The notes beneath the pieces are model-generated. The model ran no database searches. It saw only the letters and a list, made by a program, of their open reading frames with translations, and was not told the origin of the DNA. Shown here piece after piece: positions 47,033 through 55,584 of a stretch of 60,159 nt of DNA. The position numbers and the translations under genes are program-made. The DNA lies in NCBI GenBank assembly GCA_900314975.1, contig OMXI01000017.1, forward strand, positions 1 through 60,159. The letters are read 5' to 3'. The DNA comes from an uncultured Eubacteriales bacterium (lineage in GTDB: Bacteria > Bacillota > Clostridia > Oscillospirales > Ruminococcaceae). Within the stretch, counting starts at the first letter, position 1, and the number at the start of each line of letters is the position of its first letter.

Positions 47033-48388
47033 ATGGAACAGATAAGACTGTCTGAAATAGTCAAGGCGGTGAACGGAAGCTACGGCTATGATGCGGATAT
47101 GATGATAGACAATATCTCTACCGATACCCGTACCATAAACGAGGGCTCTGTTTTCCTTGCGCTAAAGGGTGCGCGCTTTGACGGACACGACTTTGCGGCA
47201 AAGGCTATGGAGCTTGGTGCGCAGGCGGTCATAACCGAGCGTGCTGTAGAGGGCGCAAGATGCATTATCGTTGATTCCACCGCAAAGGCTTTGCTTGACC
47301 TTGCGGGCTACTACAGGGATAGGTTTGACATTCATCTCGTGGGTGTTACGGGCAGCGTGGGCAAGACCACCACGAAGGATATGATAGCGCTGGTCGTTGC
47401 GCAGAAGTATAAAACGCTCAAAACACAGGGCAATCTGAATAACGAGATAGGTATGCCCAAAACTCTTTTCGGGCTTGATAAAGACACGCAGGCGGCTGTT
47501 ATCGAAATGGGCATGAGCGCGCGCGGCGAGATATCGCGTATGTCCATGTGCTGCAAGCCGACAGTGTGCGTGATAACAAATATCGGTGTTTCGCATATCG
47601 AAAAGCTCGGCTCGCAGGAAAACATTCTTGCGGCAAAGCTGGAGATACTTGACGGCGCAAAGCAGGGCGCTCCGCTGATATTGAGCATGGACGACAAGTT
47701 CCTTGCAAATGCCGAGGTACACGGCTTGCGGAAGGTGTACTATTACAGCGTCAAGAACAAAAACTGCGACGTTTATGCTAAAAATATCATAAGCAAGGGC
47801 GGCGGAGTGAACTTTGATATATGCTTCGGTATGCAGATAGTACACGCGCGGCTGAACTGCATAGGTGTGCATAATGTCAAGAATGCGCTTGCGGCGTTCT
47901 GCGTGGGGCTTGCGCTGGAGGTGCCTGTTGACGATATACTCACGGGTATTGAGAGCTTCAGACCCGAGGGACTGCGCCAGAATATAACACGCAAAAGCGG
48001 CATAAACTTTGTGGTCGACTGCTACAATGCCGCGCCCGATTCGATGAAATCAAGCATTTCTATGCTTGACCAGGTGGAGACAGACGGTATGCGCTACTGT
48101 ATCCTTGCGGATATGCTTGAGCTTGGCGAAAAGAGCAGCGAGTTCCATAAGACCGTAGGAAAGTACGTTGCGCAGTCAAATGCCGACAGACTGTACTGCT
48201 ACGGCGAGCTTGCAAGGAATTACATAATCGGCGCCGTGGAAAACGGCTTTGACAGAAACCGCTGTATGCATTTTTCCGACAGGGACGAACTTGCGGATTA
48301 TCTCAAGAGCAAGCTGAAAAACGGAGACTCGGTGCTGCTCAAGGGCAGCAGGGGAATGGCGCTGGAGGAAGTTTTCAAGGCTCTTTAA
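47033..48388 (+). CDS. murF: UDP-MurNAc-pentapeptide synthetase
   Basis: 451 residues. It adds D-Ala-D-Ala to the UDP-MurNAc-tripeptide. N-terminal domain with ISTDTRTINEGSVFLALKG, in short ISTDTR, shared with MurE; ATP loop VTGSVGKTTTKDM; NEIGMPKTL and later DCYNAAPDSMKSS are typical of MurF, and LKGSRGMALEEV ends the protein. GAGGAG is 11 bases before the ATG. It lies between murE and the MraY-like gene in the dcw operon. Confidence 0.95.
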   Translation: MEQIRLSEIVKAVNGSYGYDADMMIDNISTDTRTINEGSVFLALKGARFDGHDFAAKAMELGAQAVITERAVEGARCIIVDSTAKALLDLAGYYRDRFDIHLVGVTGSVGKTTTKDMIALVVAQKYKTLKTQGNLNNEIGMPKTLFGLDKDTQAAVIEMGMSARGEISRMSMCCKPTVCVITNIGVSHIEKLGSQENILAAKLEILDGAKQGAPLILSMDDKFLANAEVHGLRKVYYYSVKNKNCDVYAKNIISKGGGVNFDICFGMQIVHARLNCIGVHNVKNALAAFCVGLALEVPVDDILTGIESFRPEGLRQNITRKSGINFVVDCYNAAPDSMKSSISMLDQVETDGMRYCILADMLELGEKSSEFHKTVGKYVAQSNADRLYCYGELARNYIIGAVENGFDRNRCMHFSDRDELADYLKSKLKNGDSVLLKGSRGMALEEVFKAL

Positions 48389-48412
48389 CGGGCTTTTCAA
48401 AGGAGTGCGGAT

Positions 48413-49462
48413 ATGGATTGGCAGGTGCAGAGCATTGTCATTGTGACGGAGCTTGCCGCAGGATTTGTGCTTTTCAGGTTGTTTATCCCGTTTTTCAGAC
48501 GGATAAAGACGGGCAAATTTGACCTGTATATCGGCGACAGATTCAAAAAAGACGGCTCGGAGTCTAAATTTGCGGGCGTGCTGATGCTGATAACGGCGGC
48601 GCTCGGGCTGACGGTTGGTCTTATCGGCAAACACTTCAAAAGCACAATGGAATTATCTGCAAACAATAAGCTGCCTGTTTACGCAGCGTGCGGTGCGGTG
48701 GTACTGACCGTGTGCGCGCTGGGTACGGTGCAGGACTATCATAAGGAAACAAAACGAGGCACGGGACTTAAAAAACGGTGGGTGGTTCTCACCGAATTTG
48801 TCGTGTGTCTTGGTTTTTCATATATAGCGAAAATTTCGGGAATAATCGACACAAAACTGCTGCTGCCGTTTCATTGGGGAAATATTGAACTGGGATTTAT
48901 ATTTTATCCATTGACAGCGGTGCTTATGATTGTTATAATAAACTTAACGGAACTGCACGATTGCCCCGCTGGAGTGGCAGATTATGGGTGCGACGGGCTT
49001 TGCGCCGTCAGCGCAATGGTGTTCTCGCTGGCGATAGCGTGCATAGGTGCGGTGTACCCGTGGCTTGAACTGCCGCAGATGCTGGGCATAGTTACGGCGT
49101 GCAGCTGCGCGGCGTTTCTCGTTTGGGGGATAAGTCCGTCAAAGATATACCTCGGGCAGTCGGGAAGTATGTTTTTGGGCGCGATGCTTGCGCTGATAAC
49201 GGTGACCTCCAACCTGCCGCTTTTCTATCTGACGGGCGGTATCGTGTTTATTGCCGACGGCGTGTGTACGCTGACGGGTCAGATCGTCTTTAAGACGAAA
49301 AAACAGCTGCTTTTCAAGGGACTGACGCTGCACGGGCATCTGTCAAACCGCGGCTGGAGCGATTATAAAATAATGGGAGTAAGCGTCCTTGCGGCGCTGC
49401 TGGGCGCAGTCGGCGCGTTCTTTTATATTAGCTACGGCGACAGCGTTTTACTGAATAAATAG
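48413..49462 (+). CDS. MraY-family membrane protein with degenerate active site
   Basis: 349 residues, about ten membrane helices, at the place of mraY (between murF and ftsW). AAGGAG precedes the ATG. Family traces: TVQDYHK for VDDYRK, INLTE..CDGL for NLTDGLDGL, YLGQSGSMFLG for FMGDVGSLALG, LTLHGHLSNRGW for PIHHHYELKGW. Measured against E. coli MraY, D115 is Gln107 here (D116 is kept as Asp108), D267 is Gln249, and the HHH triplet reads His-Gly-His (307-309). These Asp residues bind Mg and are essential for phospho-MurNAc-pentapeptide transfer. So it is either a catalytically dead paralogue, with a true mraY elsewhere, or a diverged enzyme. The frame is intact and the gene lies tightly in the operon, so it is not a decaying pseudogene. 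Confidence 0.8.
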   Translation: MDWQVQSIVIVTELAAGFVLFRLFIPFFRRIKTGKFDLYIGDRFKKDGSESKFAGVLMLITAALGLTVGLIGKHFKSTMELSANNKLPVYAACGAVVLTVCALGTVQDYHKETKRGTGLKKRWVVLTEFVVCLGFSYIAKISGIIDTKLLLPFHWGNIELGFIFYPLTAVLMIVIINLTELHDCPAGVADYGCDGLCAVSAMVFSLAIACIGAVYPWLELPQMLGIVTACSCAAFLVWGISPSKIYLGQSGSMFLGAMLALITVTSNLPLFYLTGGIVFIADGVCTLTGQIVFKTKKQLLFKGLTLHGHLSNRGWSDYKIMGVSVLAALLGAVGAFFYISYGDSVLLNK

Positions 49463-49517
49463 AGAAAAAGATAAATACAATTGGTTAGTGTAAAGATTTT
49501 TACAGGGAGGAAGAATT

Positions 49518-50741
49518 TTGGCAAGCAAGACAATAGAGCCAAGTGATGTAAATTATTACGACGAGCTTCCCCAAAGGCGCCCTGTTGCACAGGCAAGAAA
49601 GAAACTGAATTTCCGCTTTATCCTTACCGAGATAGATAAGCCGCTTTTCGTGCTGATAATGCTGCTGCTTATGTTCGGTATGGTAATGATGTTCTCCGCA
49701 TCATACGGATGGAGCCTTGCAGAATCGGGAAGCGGTACGACATATCTCAAAAAGCAGGCAATGGTAGCGGGAATAGGCGTGGTTATCATGCTTGTTCTCT
49801 CGTCGCTTGATTATCACCTGTTCCAGAATACTTATGTGGTTTATGCGGGGTTTGTCGCCTCGCTGGGCATTTGTATGTACACGGCGTTTTTCGGAGTGGA
49901 GACCGCTAACGCAAGGCGCTGGATAGAGATAGCGGGTATACAGTTCCAGCCTTCAGAGCTTCTGAAGGTCGCGTTCATACTGATATTTGCGTATATTATG
50001 GCGGTCAACTTCCGCAGGTTCAATAACTGGAGATACTGCGTAATACCTTTCCTTGTGATTATGGGAATAGTTACGGGTATACTTGTGCTTCAAAGACATA
50101 TGTCGGCGGTAATGCTCGTGGCTATCATTGGCATAGGCATGATGTTTGTCAGCGGTATGCCTGCAAAGACGTTCTGGCGCTTTATCGCGTTTCTTGTAGT
50201 CGCAGGCGTGCTTGTGCTTGCGTTCAAGATGATTTCGGGCGGTACGGGCTTTTCGTACATTACCGACAGATTTGAAAGCTGGCAGAACCCAGAGGGCGAC
50301 CCGCAGGGCACGACCTGGCAGACCTATCAGTCACTGCTTGCTATCGGTTCGGGCGGCTGGACGGGACTGGGCTTTGGTGAGTCAAGGCAGAAGTTCCTTT
50401 ACCTGCCGATGTCGCAGAATGACTTCGTGTTCTCTATCGTTTGCGAGGAGCTTGGCTTTGTCGGCGGTATGGTAGTCGTGCTGCTGTTTGTGCTTTTCAT
50501 CGCAAGAGGTTTCTATATCGCAAATCACGCAAAGGACAGATTCGGTATGCTCGTTGCTGCGGGCATAACGATGCATATAGGCGCGCAGGCGTTTTTCAAC
50601 ATAATGGTTGCCTGCAACGCTTTTCCAAATACGGGAATATCGCTGCCGTTCTTCAGCTACGGAGGCACGGCGCTTGCGGTTCAGCTGGCGGAGATGGGCA
50701 TACTGCTGAGCATCTCACGTCAGGCGAGATTGAAAAAGTAG
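49518..50741 (+). CDS. ftsW: SEDS peptidoglycan polymerase FtsW
   Basis: 407 residues from a TTG seven bases after GGGAGG. Short cytoplasmic N-terminus, then ten membrane helices. SEDS signatures: MMFSASYGWSL in the first segment, ARRWIEIAGIQFQPSELLK, ERFESW-like DRFESWQNPEGDP, LGFGESRQKFLYLPMSQNDFVFS and the final PNTGISLPFFSYGGTA, seen here as short blocks FQPSE, SQNDF and SYGG. It polymerises lipid II at the septum together with the class B PBP encoded four genes upstream. Position after mraY-like and before murG fits FtsW rather than RodA. Confidence 0.93.
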   Translation: MASKTIEPSDVNYYDELPQRRPVAQARKKLNFRFILTEIDKPLFVLIMLLLMFGMVMMFSASYGWSLAESGSGTTYLKKQAMVAGIGVVIMLVLSSLDYHLFQNTYVVYAGFVASLGICMYTAFFGVETANARRWIEIAGIQFQPSELLKVAFILIFAYIMAVNFRRFNNWRYCVIPFLVIMGIVTGILVLQRHMSAVMLVAIIGIGMMFVSGMPAKTFWRFIAFLVVAGVLVLAFKMISGGTGFSYITDRFESWQNPEGDPQGTTWQTYQSLLAIGSGGWTGLGFGESRQKFLYLPMSQNDFVFSIVCEELGFVGGMVVVLLFVLFIARGFYIANHAKDRFGMLVAAGITMHIGAQAFFNIMVACNAFPNTGISLPFFSYGGTALAVQLAEMGILLSISRQARLKK

Positions 50742-50776: not shown

Positions 50777-51907
50777 ATGTACAGAGTTTTGCTTGCGGGC
50801 GGAGGTACGGCAGGTCACGTTAACCCTGCACTCGCTATCGCAGAGATAATCAAGGATAAGTATCCCGATACACAGTTTTGCTTTGCGGGAAACCCCGACA
50901 AGATAGAGGCTGAACTTGTGAAAAAGGCGGGGTACAGGTTTGAGCCTGTAAGGATAGAGGGTTTTCAAAGGCATATCAACCCTGCGAATATCAAGAGAAA
51001 TTTCAAGGCGGTAAGCTACCTGATGAAATCGGGCAGAACCTGCAAGAATATAATCAAGGACTTTAAGCCTGACCTTGTTGTAGGTACGGGCGGATATGTA
51101 TCGGGACCTGTTGTAAGAGCCGCTGCAAAAATGGGCATAAAGACAGCTGTCCACGAGCAGAACGCTTATGCGGGCGTTACAAACAAGCTGCTTTCAAAGC
51201 ACGCCGACCTTGTGATGTTAAGCGTAAAGGAAGCAAAGAAGTATTTTGAGAAGGCAAAGAAAGTCGTTGTAACGGGGCTGCCCGTGAGAAAGGCTTTCAG
51301 CAAGATGTCAAAGCAGGAGGCAAGAAAGCAGCTTGGCTTTGATGCTGACACCGTCTGCGTGCTTTCTACGGGCGGAAGCCTTGGCTCACTGACTATCAAC
51401 AGGTATGCGGCAAAGCTGCTGAAATACTATCAGGATAATGATATCAAGGTCAACCATATACATTCCTACGGCACATATCCCGATTATAAGGACTATGTGA
51501 AAACGCTGGAGGAAAGCGGCGTAAAGGTCAATGACGACCCGCACAGGATAGTTGACAGCTACATAAATATGCCCGTGGCTATGGCTGCGTGCGACCTCGT
51601 TATAACCCGCTGCGGCGCGTGCGCCCTTACGGAGATCGAGGCTATGGGCAGACCTGCGGTGATGATACCATCGCCTATGGTTGCGGAAAATCATCAGTAC
51701 TACAACGGGTTGGTGCTGCAAAATGCGGGTGCGGGTGTTGTTATCGAGGAAAAGGACCTCACGGAAGAAGGATTTATCAAGACGGTCATGGAGTATATCG
51801 GTGACCGCGCAAAGCTGGAGGAGTCGGCGAAAAATGCTGCAAAGCTGCATATTGCAGACACTCGCGAAAGGATAATGCAGGCGCTTGACAAGCTGCTTGA
51901 AAAGTGA
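50777..51907 (+). CDS. murG: UDP-GlcNAc:lipid I N-acetylglucosaminyltransferase MurG
   Basis: 376 residues from the ATG after CAGGGAG; the frame is open further upstream but overlaps ftsW. It adds GlcNAc to lipid I at the inner membrane face. Family GT28 motifs: LAGGGTAGHVNPAL with the Gly loop at residues 7-13, HEQNAYAGVTNKLL, TGLPVRKAF, TGGSLGSL and the UDP-GlcNAc-binding CDLVITRCGACALTE. Directly follows ftsW in the dcw operon. Confidence 0.96.
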   Translation: MYRVLLAGGGTAGHVNPALAIAEIIKDKYPDTQFCFAGNPDKIEAELVKKAGYRFEPVRIEGFQRHINPANIKRNFKAVSYLMKSGRTCKNIIKDFKPDLVVGTGGYVSGPVVRAAAKMGIKTAVHEQNAYAGVTNKLLSKHADLVMLSVKEAKKYFEKAKKVVVTGLPVRKAFSKMSKQEARKQLGFDADTVCVLSTGGSLGSLTINRYAAKLLKYYQDNDIKVNHIHSYGTYPDYKDYVKTLEESGVKVNDDPHRIVDSYINMPVAMAACDLVITRCGACALTEIEAMGRPAVMIPSPMVAENHQYYNGLVLQNAGAGVVIEEKDLTEEGFIKTVMEYIGDRAKLEESAKNAAKLHIADTRERIMQALDKLLEK

Positions 51908-54216: not shown

Positions 54217-55584
54217 ATGAAGGATGTTGTAAGGTCTGCATCGACAAGAGGTGCAAACAGTGAAAACAAAACAAAATCAAAGCACGAACAAGGCAGTATC
54301 GTGGGCTATTGCGCTATTGCCTTTGTTTTTGTGTCTTTGATAGTTCTGGTGCTGTGCCTGACGGTGTTTTTCAAGGTGAAATTGGTCGAGATAAACGGCG
54401 TAACGCTCTACCGCGATGACCAGATACTCGGCGTGGGCGGCATACTCAAAGACGAAAACCTTGTGCGCACAGATACCTCGCTTATAAAGAAAAGACTTGA
54501 GGAAAACCTCGTGTTTATCGAGGAGGCAAAGGTCGAAAAGAAATACCCGTCGACGCTTATAATAAGTGTGACGGAGGCGGAAAAAGCCGCTGATATCGTT
54601 ATCGACGACAAGGTGTGCGTGGTGTCAAAGTCGGGCAGGGTGCTTGAAATGGGCAACACGAAAACTACGGGCGGGATTCCCGTGGTAAGAGGCTTTGAGC
54701 TTACCAGCAAGAAGGTCGGCGAAAAGCTCGCAAGCAAGGACGAGAGCAAACTGAAAATCTACAAGGACCTTTTGAAGATAATCGACTCTATCGGTATGGA
54801 CAAAATCACAGAGATAGACCTTAACAGCCGCTCGGGAATCATACTTTTGTACGACGGCAGGATAACGCTTGAGCTGGGAAGCTCTATGGATCTTGATTAT
54901 AAGCTGAACTATTTCAAATCGGTCATTGACAGTAAGCTGTCGGACGATTTCAAGGGCAAGCTGGTCTACAACGGCGCTGACAGCGGTATCTCGGCGATAC
55001 CCGACGGCGCGGGCAAGAAAGACGAAGCAAAGGATGATTCGTCGGCTGCCGATAAGGATAAGGACAAGGATAAGCAGGACGCTCAAAACGGCGCAGGTAC
55101 GGGCGATGACCAGAACACAGATGCCAACACAAACGCCAATACCGATGCCAACGCAAACGCAAATACCGATGCGAACGCTGACCTTGGCGGCAATACCAAC
55201 TACGGCTATATGCAGCAGGATCAGAACGGAACGCAGGGCTACGGTTATATGCAGCAGCAGGATCAGAATGGCACGGGCTATGATTACAATAACGGCGGTA
55301 CAGGCTACGACTACGGCTACAACAATGGTACAACAGGTTATGACTACGGCTACGGCTATAACAACGGCACGACAGGCTATGACTACGGCTACGGCTACAA
55401 CAACGGCACGACGGGCTATGACTACGGCTACGGCTACAACAACGGTACAACGGGCTATGACTATGGCTACGGATTTAACAACGGCACAACAGGCTATGAC
55501 TACGGCTACGGATACAACAACGGCGCAACGGGTTATGACTACGGCGGTTCATACGATTATAACGCGGGCGGATATGGCTATTGA
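54217..55584 (+). CDS. ftsQ: Cell division protein FtsQ/DivIB with Tyr/Gly/Asn repeat tail
   Basis: 455 residues; AGGGAAAGG precedes the ATG. Cytoplasmic N-terminus, one membrane helix (about 29-52), POTRA domain (about 53-130, VKLVEINGVTLYRDDQIL, KKYPSTLIISVTE) and the beta domain (about 130-255, ending VYNGADSGISA). This core is a normal DivIB. After it come a Lys/Asp-rich linker (about 262-290), Asn/Ala/Asp repeats (DANANANT), and 13-residue repeats GYDYGYGYNNGTT to the end. The tail, about 200 residues on the outer face, is far longer than usual tails and prion-like in composition. FtsQ binds FtsL/DivIC and checks septal synthesis. Confidence 0.9.
   Translation: MKDVVRSASTRGANSENKTKSKHEQGSIVGYCAIAFVFVSLIVLVLCLTVFFKVKLVEINGVTLYRDDQILGVGGILKDENLVRTDTSLIKKRLEENLVFIEEAKVEKKYPSTLIISVTEAEKAADIVIDDKVCVVSKSGRVLEMGNTKTTGGIPVVRGFELTSKKVGEKLASKDESKLKIYKDLLKIIDSIGMDKITEIDLNSRSGIILLYDGRITLELGSSMDLDYKLNYFKSVIDSKLSDDFKGKLVYNGADSGISAIPDGAGKKDEAKDDSSAADKDKDKDKQDAQNGAGTGDDQNTDANTNANTDANANANTDANADLGGNTNYGYMQQDQNGTQGYGYMQQQDQNGTGYDYNNGGTGYDYGYNNGTTGYDYGYGYNNGTTGYDYGYGYNNGTTGYDYGYGYNNGTTGYDYGYGFNNGTTGYDYGYGYNNGATGYDYGGSYDYNAGGYGY
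55300..55546 (+). repeat. 39-base tandem repeats coding the FtsQ tail
   Basis: One 33-base unit (55300-55332), five 39-base units (to 55527) and a partial unit, coding GYDYGYGYNNGTT-type peptides; few base differences between units. Confidence 0.9.

Follow-up and report, generated by a model that had tools for sequence, protein, structure and literature searches.

The mraY-like gene in the dcw cluster of an uncultured member of the Ruminococcaceae encodes an intact protein, conserved by purifying selection, that has lost catalytic residues of MraY. The best explanation, to which we give a probability of about 0.6, is that this dcw protein is a conserved pseudoenzyme descended from a normal MraY and that lipid I synthesis has passed to a second, divergent MraY-like protein, here called MraY2, encoded elsewhere in the genome. 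The parts of this explanation differ in strength. The product of the dcw gene is almost certainly a functional protein. Judged from sequence, MraY2 very probably makes lipid I and the dcw protein is highly likely to be dead as an MraY. We use the term pseudoenzyme in the sense that catalytic residues have been lost from a protein still under purifying selection.

The stretch of DNA analysed (the window, 60,159 nucleotides) is contig C41 of a genome that comprises 91 contigs, totals 2.92 Mb and is 98.5% complete. Family matches give the gene order rsmH, a PASTA-type PBP, murE, murF, the MraY-like gene, ftsW, murG, an ORF, murA, a further ORF and ftsZ, with the ftsW, murG and PBP matches falling below cut-offs. 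The MraY-like gene lies at 48413-49462 on the forward strand, as do the neighbouring murF, ftsW and murG genes; the preliminary description had reported an intact MraY-like protein of 349 residues between murF and ftsW, and the coordinates, length and open frame are all confirmed. The upstream neighbour is murF (47033-48388), downstream are an ftsW/SEDS gene (49518-50741, start codon provisional) and murG (50807-51907, start chosen by us). Many bacteria carry murD between murF and ftsW; it is absent from that interval in the window (48389-49517). A 455-residue ORF at 54217-55584 occupies the position expected for ftsQ/divIB and resembles FtsQ by eye. It has no NCBIfam match at 1e-5, and its Tyr/Gly/Asn-rich tail is encoded by about six copies of a 39-base unit.

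The dcw protein matches PF00953 (Glycos_transf_4) with 62.5 bits against a curated cut-off of 27 and is thus a member of the family by descent. On the MraY equivalog profile TIGR00445 it scores 81.3 bits, below the curated 192; the one canonical family member whose score we show reaches 285 bits. All five solved structures matched at E<=0.01 are MraY. An AlphaFold model (pLDDT 81, pTM 0.86) has MraY as its best solved match (TM 0.78), and all 38 Foldseek matches of the model at E<=0.001 are MraY chains or human DPAGT1. Among 32 invariant residues 26 fall within the 90 of 349 positions that we ourselves assigned to the cytoplasmic face (p 6e-12). The protein resembles MraY (TIGR00445; PF00953, phospho-N-acetylmuramoyl-pentapeptide transferase) in fold, length and position between murF and ftsW, but differs in lacking equivalents of D267, D115 and the middle His.

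E. coli numbering is used for these residues; according to a review (PMC5039524), Mg lies near the D267-equivalent and the D115-equivalent deprotonates C55-P. The D115 position is occupied by Gln107 (codon 48731-48733), with the next residue, D108 at the D116 position, kept. At the D267 position, that of the Mg-binding Asp, there is Gln249 (49157-49159), whose flanking Gly residues are kept in LGQSG. HHH is replaced by HGH, residues 307-309 (49331-49339). In loop C, residues 183-197 (48959-49003), NLTDGLDGL is disrupted to DCPAGVADYGCDGLC, being interrupted by an insertion (HDCPAGVADYGCDGL). In loop A, residues 33-55 by our assignment (48509-48577), the canonical GPxWHxxKxGTPTMGG has become GDRxxxDGSEPxxGG in the genus consensus. 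Alignment with the solved MraY 5jnq pairs LDDY with VQDY, MGDTGS with LGQSGS and PIHHHF with TLHGHL. The two Gln residues, the HGH and the broken NLTDGLDGL had been noted in the preliminary description, and they agree with this alignment and with that of the genus. Since the Mg-binding Asp is missing, the dcw protein should not transfer phospho-MurNAc-pentapeptide.

It had been proposed that the genome be searched for a second mraY with DD and GD motifs. The PF00953 search returned two matches, the dcw copy and a gene on contig C76, so the dcw copy is not the only candidate. The C76 protein, MraY2, has 322 residues and carries the motifs DD (GYFDD), NxxNCxDGxDG (NVTNCADGVDGLC), MGDAGS and HDH. 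It scores 76.6 bits on the mraY profile as opposed to 24.6 on that of wecA, below the mraY cut-off of 192; three other MraY2 copies, at 82-99 bits, are likewise below it. Residues were counted in 42 MraY2 sequences, 27 from the genus and 15 from other genera, numbered on the canonical relative from genome G115. D110, D111, N180, N183, D186, D189, D243 and the first His of the catalytic site are kept in 42/42 and the third His in 41, whereas all 42 have Asp in place of the middle His. MraY2, which also occurs in Ruminococcus albus and Lachnospira pectinoschiza, has PF00953 and the MraY fold in common with the dcw protein. It retains the catalytic residues, and an MraY-like GWSDTQVV segment follows HxH. 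Unlike canonical MraY it forms a separate gene clade, lies outside the dcw cluster, has HDH for HHH and scores below the TIGR00445 cut-off.

MraY2 is widespread, with at least 505 confirmed stretches among genome contigs, of which the best 80 were taken. A location in a polysaccharide cluster was considered and rejected, as the neighbours differ across ten loci and no such cluster is evident (ORF listing, by eye). Flanking sequence was fetched for 11 genus loci; each has a TIGR00374 flippase-like gene near MraY2 on the same strand (for example L001:111-1232; L058-L068), and four have a FemAB-type gene nearby. For the pair G004/G018 (L010/L019) the dS of MraY2 is 1.08, compared with 0.15-0.46 for four dcw genes, which hints at recombination or replacement of MraY2.

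The genus survey covered 29 genomes, the window genome among them, and included R. albus KH2T6, 8 and AR67 (G003, G004, G005) and the Ruminococcus MAGs G010 and G020. PF00953 matched twice in 26 genomes and once in three; 28 dcw copies and 27 MraY2 copies were recovered, that of the dcw cluster in G026 being reduced to a 75-base edge fragment. The MraY-like gene sits between murF and ftsW in the window and in 27 other genus loci. All 28 dcw copies match PF00953 at E<=0.001 and have an open frame, even where identity to the window protein is as low as 32%. None keeps the D267-equivalent. The first Asp of the DD motif survives in two and the second in all 28; of the HHH motif, the first His is kept in 28/28, the middle in 0/28 and the third in 27/28. 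Sister species might have retained the Asp residues, which would have pointed to a local change or a sequence error in the window gene. That explanation is rejected, since the D267-equivalent is lost genus-wide, from all 28 dcw copies.

The family was sampled with 119 genomes, mostly one per genus. PF00953 matches were found in 113 and none in six. MraY2 was assigned to 16 genomes including that of the window (G000), on the strength of PF00953 matches and profile scores, not of an MraY2 profile run over all 119. Among these 16 the dcw gene has a D267-equivalent in two (G046, G096), Asn in one (G070) and another replacement in 11 (G000, G056, G058, G063, G077, G098, G106, G108, G136, G140, G145), and the gene is absent from two (G091, G101). 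The other 95 family genomes each have one match of canonical strength, that of G122 in two pieces. For 35 of them, chosen mostly for high scores, residues were checked, and D110, D111 and D243 are kept in all 35. Three genomes have a degenerate dcw copy with MraY2 not detected, and we count them against the pseudoenzyme reading: G130 and G011 of the family sample, the latter 99% complete, and G007, which like G011 belongs to the genus. In G125 (L269), one of the six family genomes without a PF00953 match and 95% complete, no MraY-type gene was found by PF00953 or three profiles, and the FtsW-type match is weak.

Two further genera were surveyed in depth. In the genus of G108 (g81) 20 of 21 genomes have a PF00953 match, G179 having none, and 17 of 18 full-length dcw copies lack the D267-equivalent, G170 being the one that keeps it. 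Two more g81 copies are partial: that of G180 is cut by contig ends, and that of G172 (L317) is split over two frames, for which a frameshift and an assembly error are both possible. Both Asp of the DD motif are kept in most g81 copies, so the loss there concerns D267 and the His sites. In the genus of G056 (g29) 19 of 21 genomes were matched. The D267-equivalent is missing from all 17 full-length copies and from one more that is truncated at a contig edge; one further match is a short fragment. MraY2 is present in all 42 genomes searched in these two genera (40/40 further members plus G108 and G056). Each of the three genera is degenerate in its own way; G167, G171 and G173 are single-contig genomes, so assembly gaps are not the explanation there.

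A set of 73 degenerate dcw proteins was assembled from 28 genus copies, five from near relatives, 17 each from g81 and g29 and six from single genera, leaving out G170 (D267 kept), G070 (Asn) and partial or split copies. The D267-equivalent is found in 0/73, a value partly due to construction because the single-genus copies were picked as not intact, the genus copies being unselected. The middle His is also absent from all 73. Both Gly of the GxxG around the D267 site and G190 are kept in 73/73, the second Asp of DD in 70, and P52 and G56 in 72 each. The D267 position itself is occupied by Q, R, E, S, A, H and others across lineages. An alignment of orthologues had been suggested as a check on whether the Gln residues are conserved under purifying selection; such selection on the dcw protein holds (11 pairs, below), but the D267 site is variable. 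That other genera are degenerate too, and that some genomes have no dcw gene at all, extends the observation beyond the preliminary description.

PF00953 alone proved unsuitable as a detector of degenerate copies and was rejected for this purpose, as it missed the degenerate gene of G058 that was seen on reading the locus. We accepted absence only where the murF-ftsW junction had been read; in L. pectinoschiza and four genomes like it, a search with a canonical-MraY profile served instead. In G091, G101, G158, G159 and G160, which represent one or two lineages, murF directly adjoins ftsW and there is no dcw MraY. The canonical-MraY profile found the MraY2 locus alone in four of these and two MraY2-type loci in G159. 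It likewise found only the MraY2 locus in L. pectinoschiza (G151), G153, G154, G155 and G157, where absence rests on this profile search and murF is apart from ftsW in those fetched. The MraY2-type genes are thus the sole MraY candidates found in the five genomes and in L. pectinoschiza, which is why MraY2 very probably makes lipid I. The missing dcw gene also implies that its role is dispensable or replaceable in those five genomes. In the Lachnospira MAG G156 (L297, L257) MraY2 occurs together with a canonical dcw MraY, which may reflect contamination.

These genomes bear on whether the dcw protein might still be a working MraY that uses other residues, with MraY2 a different phosphoglycosyltransferase. 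The gene is at the mraY locus and under selection, the 76.6 bits of MraY2 fall below the curated 192 for mraY, and three genomes (G046, G096, G170) hold MraY2 together with a dcw copy that has the D267-equivalent. We nevertheless regard this as very improbable given that dcw MraY is undetected in five genomes and L. pectinoschiza, all with MraY2-type genes, that the catalytic residues of MraY2 are conserved in 42/42 with a better match to mraY than to wecA, and that the degenerate copies share no replacement at D267.

Selection was assessed by pairwise dN/dS (NG86), using for the genus 11 close pairs that we chose. The dcw copy gives 0.065-0.187 (11 pairs), far below 1. The corresponding ranges are 0.029-0.100 for MraY2 (9 pairs), 0.011-0.084 for murF (11 pairs) and 0.023-0.158 for ftsW; the dcw value is above that of murF in 11/11 pairs and above most MraY2 values. 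In g29 the dcw copy gives 0.118-0.281 (5 pairs) and in g81 0.111-0.548 (0.55 in one pair), with 0.070-0.366 for murF in the same g81 pairs; the g81 comparisons are limited to pairs of >62% identity with unsaturated sites, and the flanking genes there are partial. With dN/dS above that of murF in all genus pairs and up to 0.55 in g81, constraint on the dcw copy is looser than on its neighbours.

Is the dcw gene then a slowly dying relic, persisting because clean deletion is rare in an essential operon or because its translation is coupled to that of ftsW? The excess over murF would fit, as would the very divergent copies in G136, G058 and G145, the split copy in G172 and the short distances from the gene to murF and to ftsW in 27 genus loci. 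We consider it unlikely because dN/dS is well below 1 in the genus and g29, all 28 genus frames are open at identities down to 32% and residues have been newly fixed. Deletion is also evidently possible, since murF adjoins ftsW in five genomes.

In an MraY gene tree of 66 sequences the 32 dcw copies, canonical and degenerate, form one group (UFBoot 100). By position and by this tree the window dcw protein is the true orthologue of dcw MraY and the gene elsewhere is an outlier paralogue. The preliminary description had offered a true mraY elsewhere with a conserved pseudoenzyme at this locus as one of two possibilities; the second MraY-like gene and the intact, selected dcw copy bear this out, but the roles of orthologue and paralogue are the reverse of those supposed. 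Within the group G106, G108 and G177 are nested beside the intact G170 (97), and G145, G058, G077 and g29 fall together, contrary to a tree of the flanking genes. The other degenerate copies are possibly grouped by their long branches, and on account of these and of the conflict the gene tree was rejected for counting losses. The flanking-gene tree (murE, murF, ftsW and murG; 57 genomes, each with three or all four of these genes; 1725 columns) places degenerate G056 with intact G144 (0.999), G108 with intact G048 (0.99) and G058 with intact G134 and G096 (0.985), several other nodes being weak (0.15-0.57). It calls for seven irreversible losses (Fitch 6), a count that treats missing genes and the Asn of G070 as loss. 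Because the trees conflict, the gene tree separating fewer losses with confidence, we give a range: the sequences indicate that loss of D267 is repeated, at least two times and perhaps seven.

The other possibility raised in the preliminary description was new chemistry. The dcw protein would then have a remodelled pocket and be an enzyme of another kind, or a sensor that binds a metal or a ligand. At 17 positions at least 96% of the genus copies carry the same residue, and it differs from the canonical consensus; two of the 17 are inside an insertion and six are in loop A (T33, D42, R43, D47, S49 and E50). The charged D42, R43, D47 and E50 lie next to the kept D108, D183, D194 and H307, and most invariant positions are cytoplasmic by our assignment (26/32), all of which could suit new chemistry. 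However, only the Ruminococcus clade has the loop A motif, which the other degenerate genera lack, the many different residues at the D267 position do not look like a single new active site, and the gene context gives no hint of a new pathway. New chemistry is therefore the less likely of the two possibilities raised, and we judge it improbable. With the loop A motif so restricted, the degenerate copies may not all share one function.

A role in one life stage, such as sporulation or asymmetric division, has a precedent in the dcw-encoded SEDS protein and class B PBP of Clostridioides difficile. As described in PMC10693644, these dcw peptidoglycan synthases, SpoVE and SpoVD, are sporulation-specific. 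There, as with dcw MraY, the vegetative role is carried elsewhere and the gene stayed in the cluster; the difference is that SpoVE and SpoVD are still peptidoglycan synthases, whereas the dcw MraY is without catalytic residues. The window PBP has spoVD as its best match, below cut-off, but the FtsW-type protein scores higher for ftsW than for spoVE, both below cut-off. We think such a role improbable for the dcw protein.

The pseudoenzyme reading would then run as follows. Catalysis of lipid I synthesis would have moved to the divergent, stand-alone MraY2 (on C76 here), after which the D267 site would have decayed repeatedly and differently by lineage, the dcw protein retaining the MraY fold, with its cytoplasmic face conserved, beside murF and ftsW. 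It would most likely be a membrane scaffold that possibly still binds UDP-MurNAc-pentapeptide or undecaprenyl phosphate, and which might hold MurF, MurG and FtsW at the membrane or modulate MraY2, possibly as a dimer partner. According to the review cited above (PMC5039524), mutating conserved polar residues in the loops of B. subtilis MraY abolished activity but left UDP-MurNAc-pentapeptide binding intact, and for other bacteria PMC6420597 reports that MraY interacts with both MurG and MurF. Given the fold, the conservation of the cytoplasmic face, these binding-competent mutants and the contacts with MurG and MurF, a non-catalytic scaffold or substrate holder is the most economical proposal. 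We infer such a role with only modest preference over any other. A wider and more tentative idea, to which we would give somewhat less than an even chance, is that MraY in general does a second job, independent of catalysis, within the lipid II and division machinery encoded by dcw genes, and that this job is exposed where a lineage has MraY2. A literature search, which drew mostly on papers available without subscription, found no description of a degenerate dcw MraY alongside a second MraY.

MraY is essential, almost universal and a target of antibiotics. In whole genera, cultured R. albus included, its catalysis appears to have been separated from its place in the division gene cluster. Annotation by position would misidentify the working MraY of these bacteria. 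The observations also raise a testable question, whether MraY organises MurF, MurG and FtsW apart from its synthesis of lipid I.
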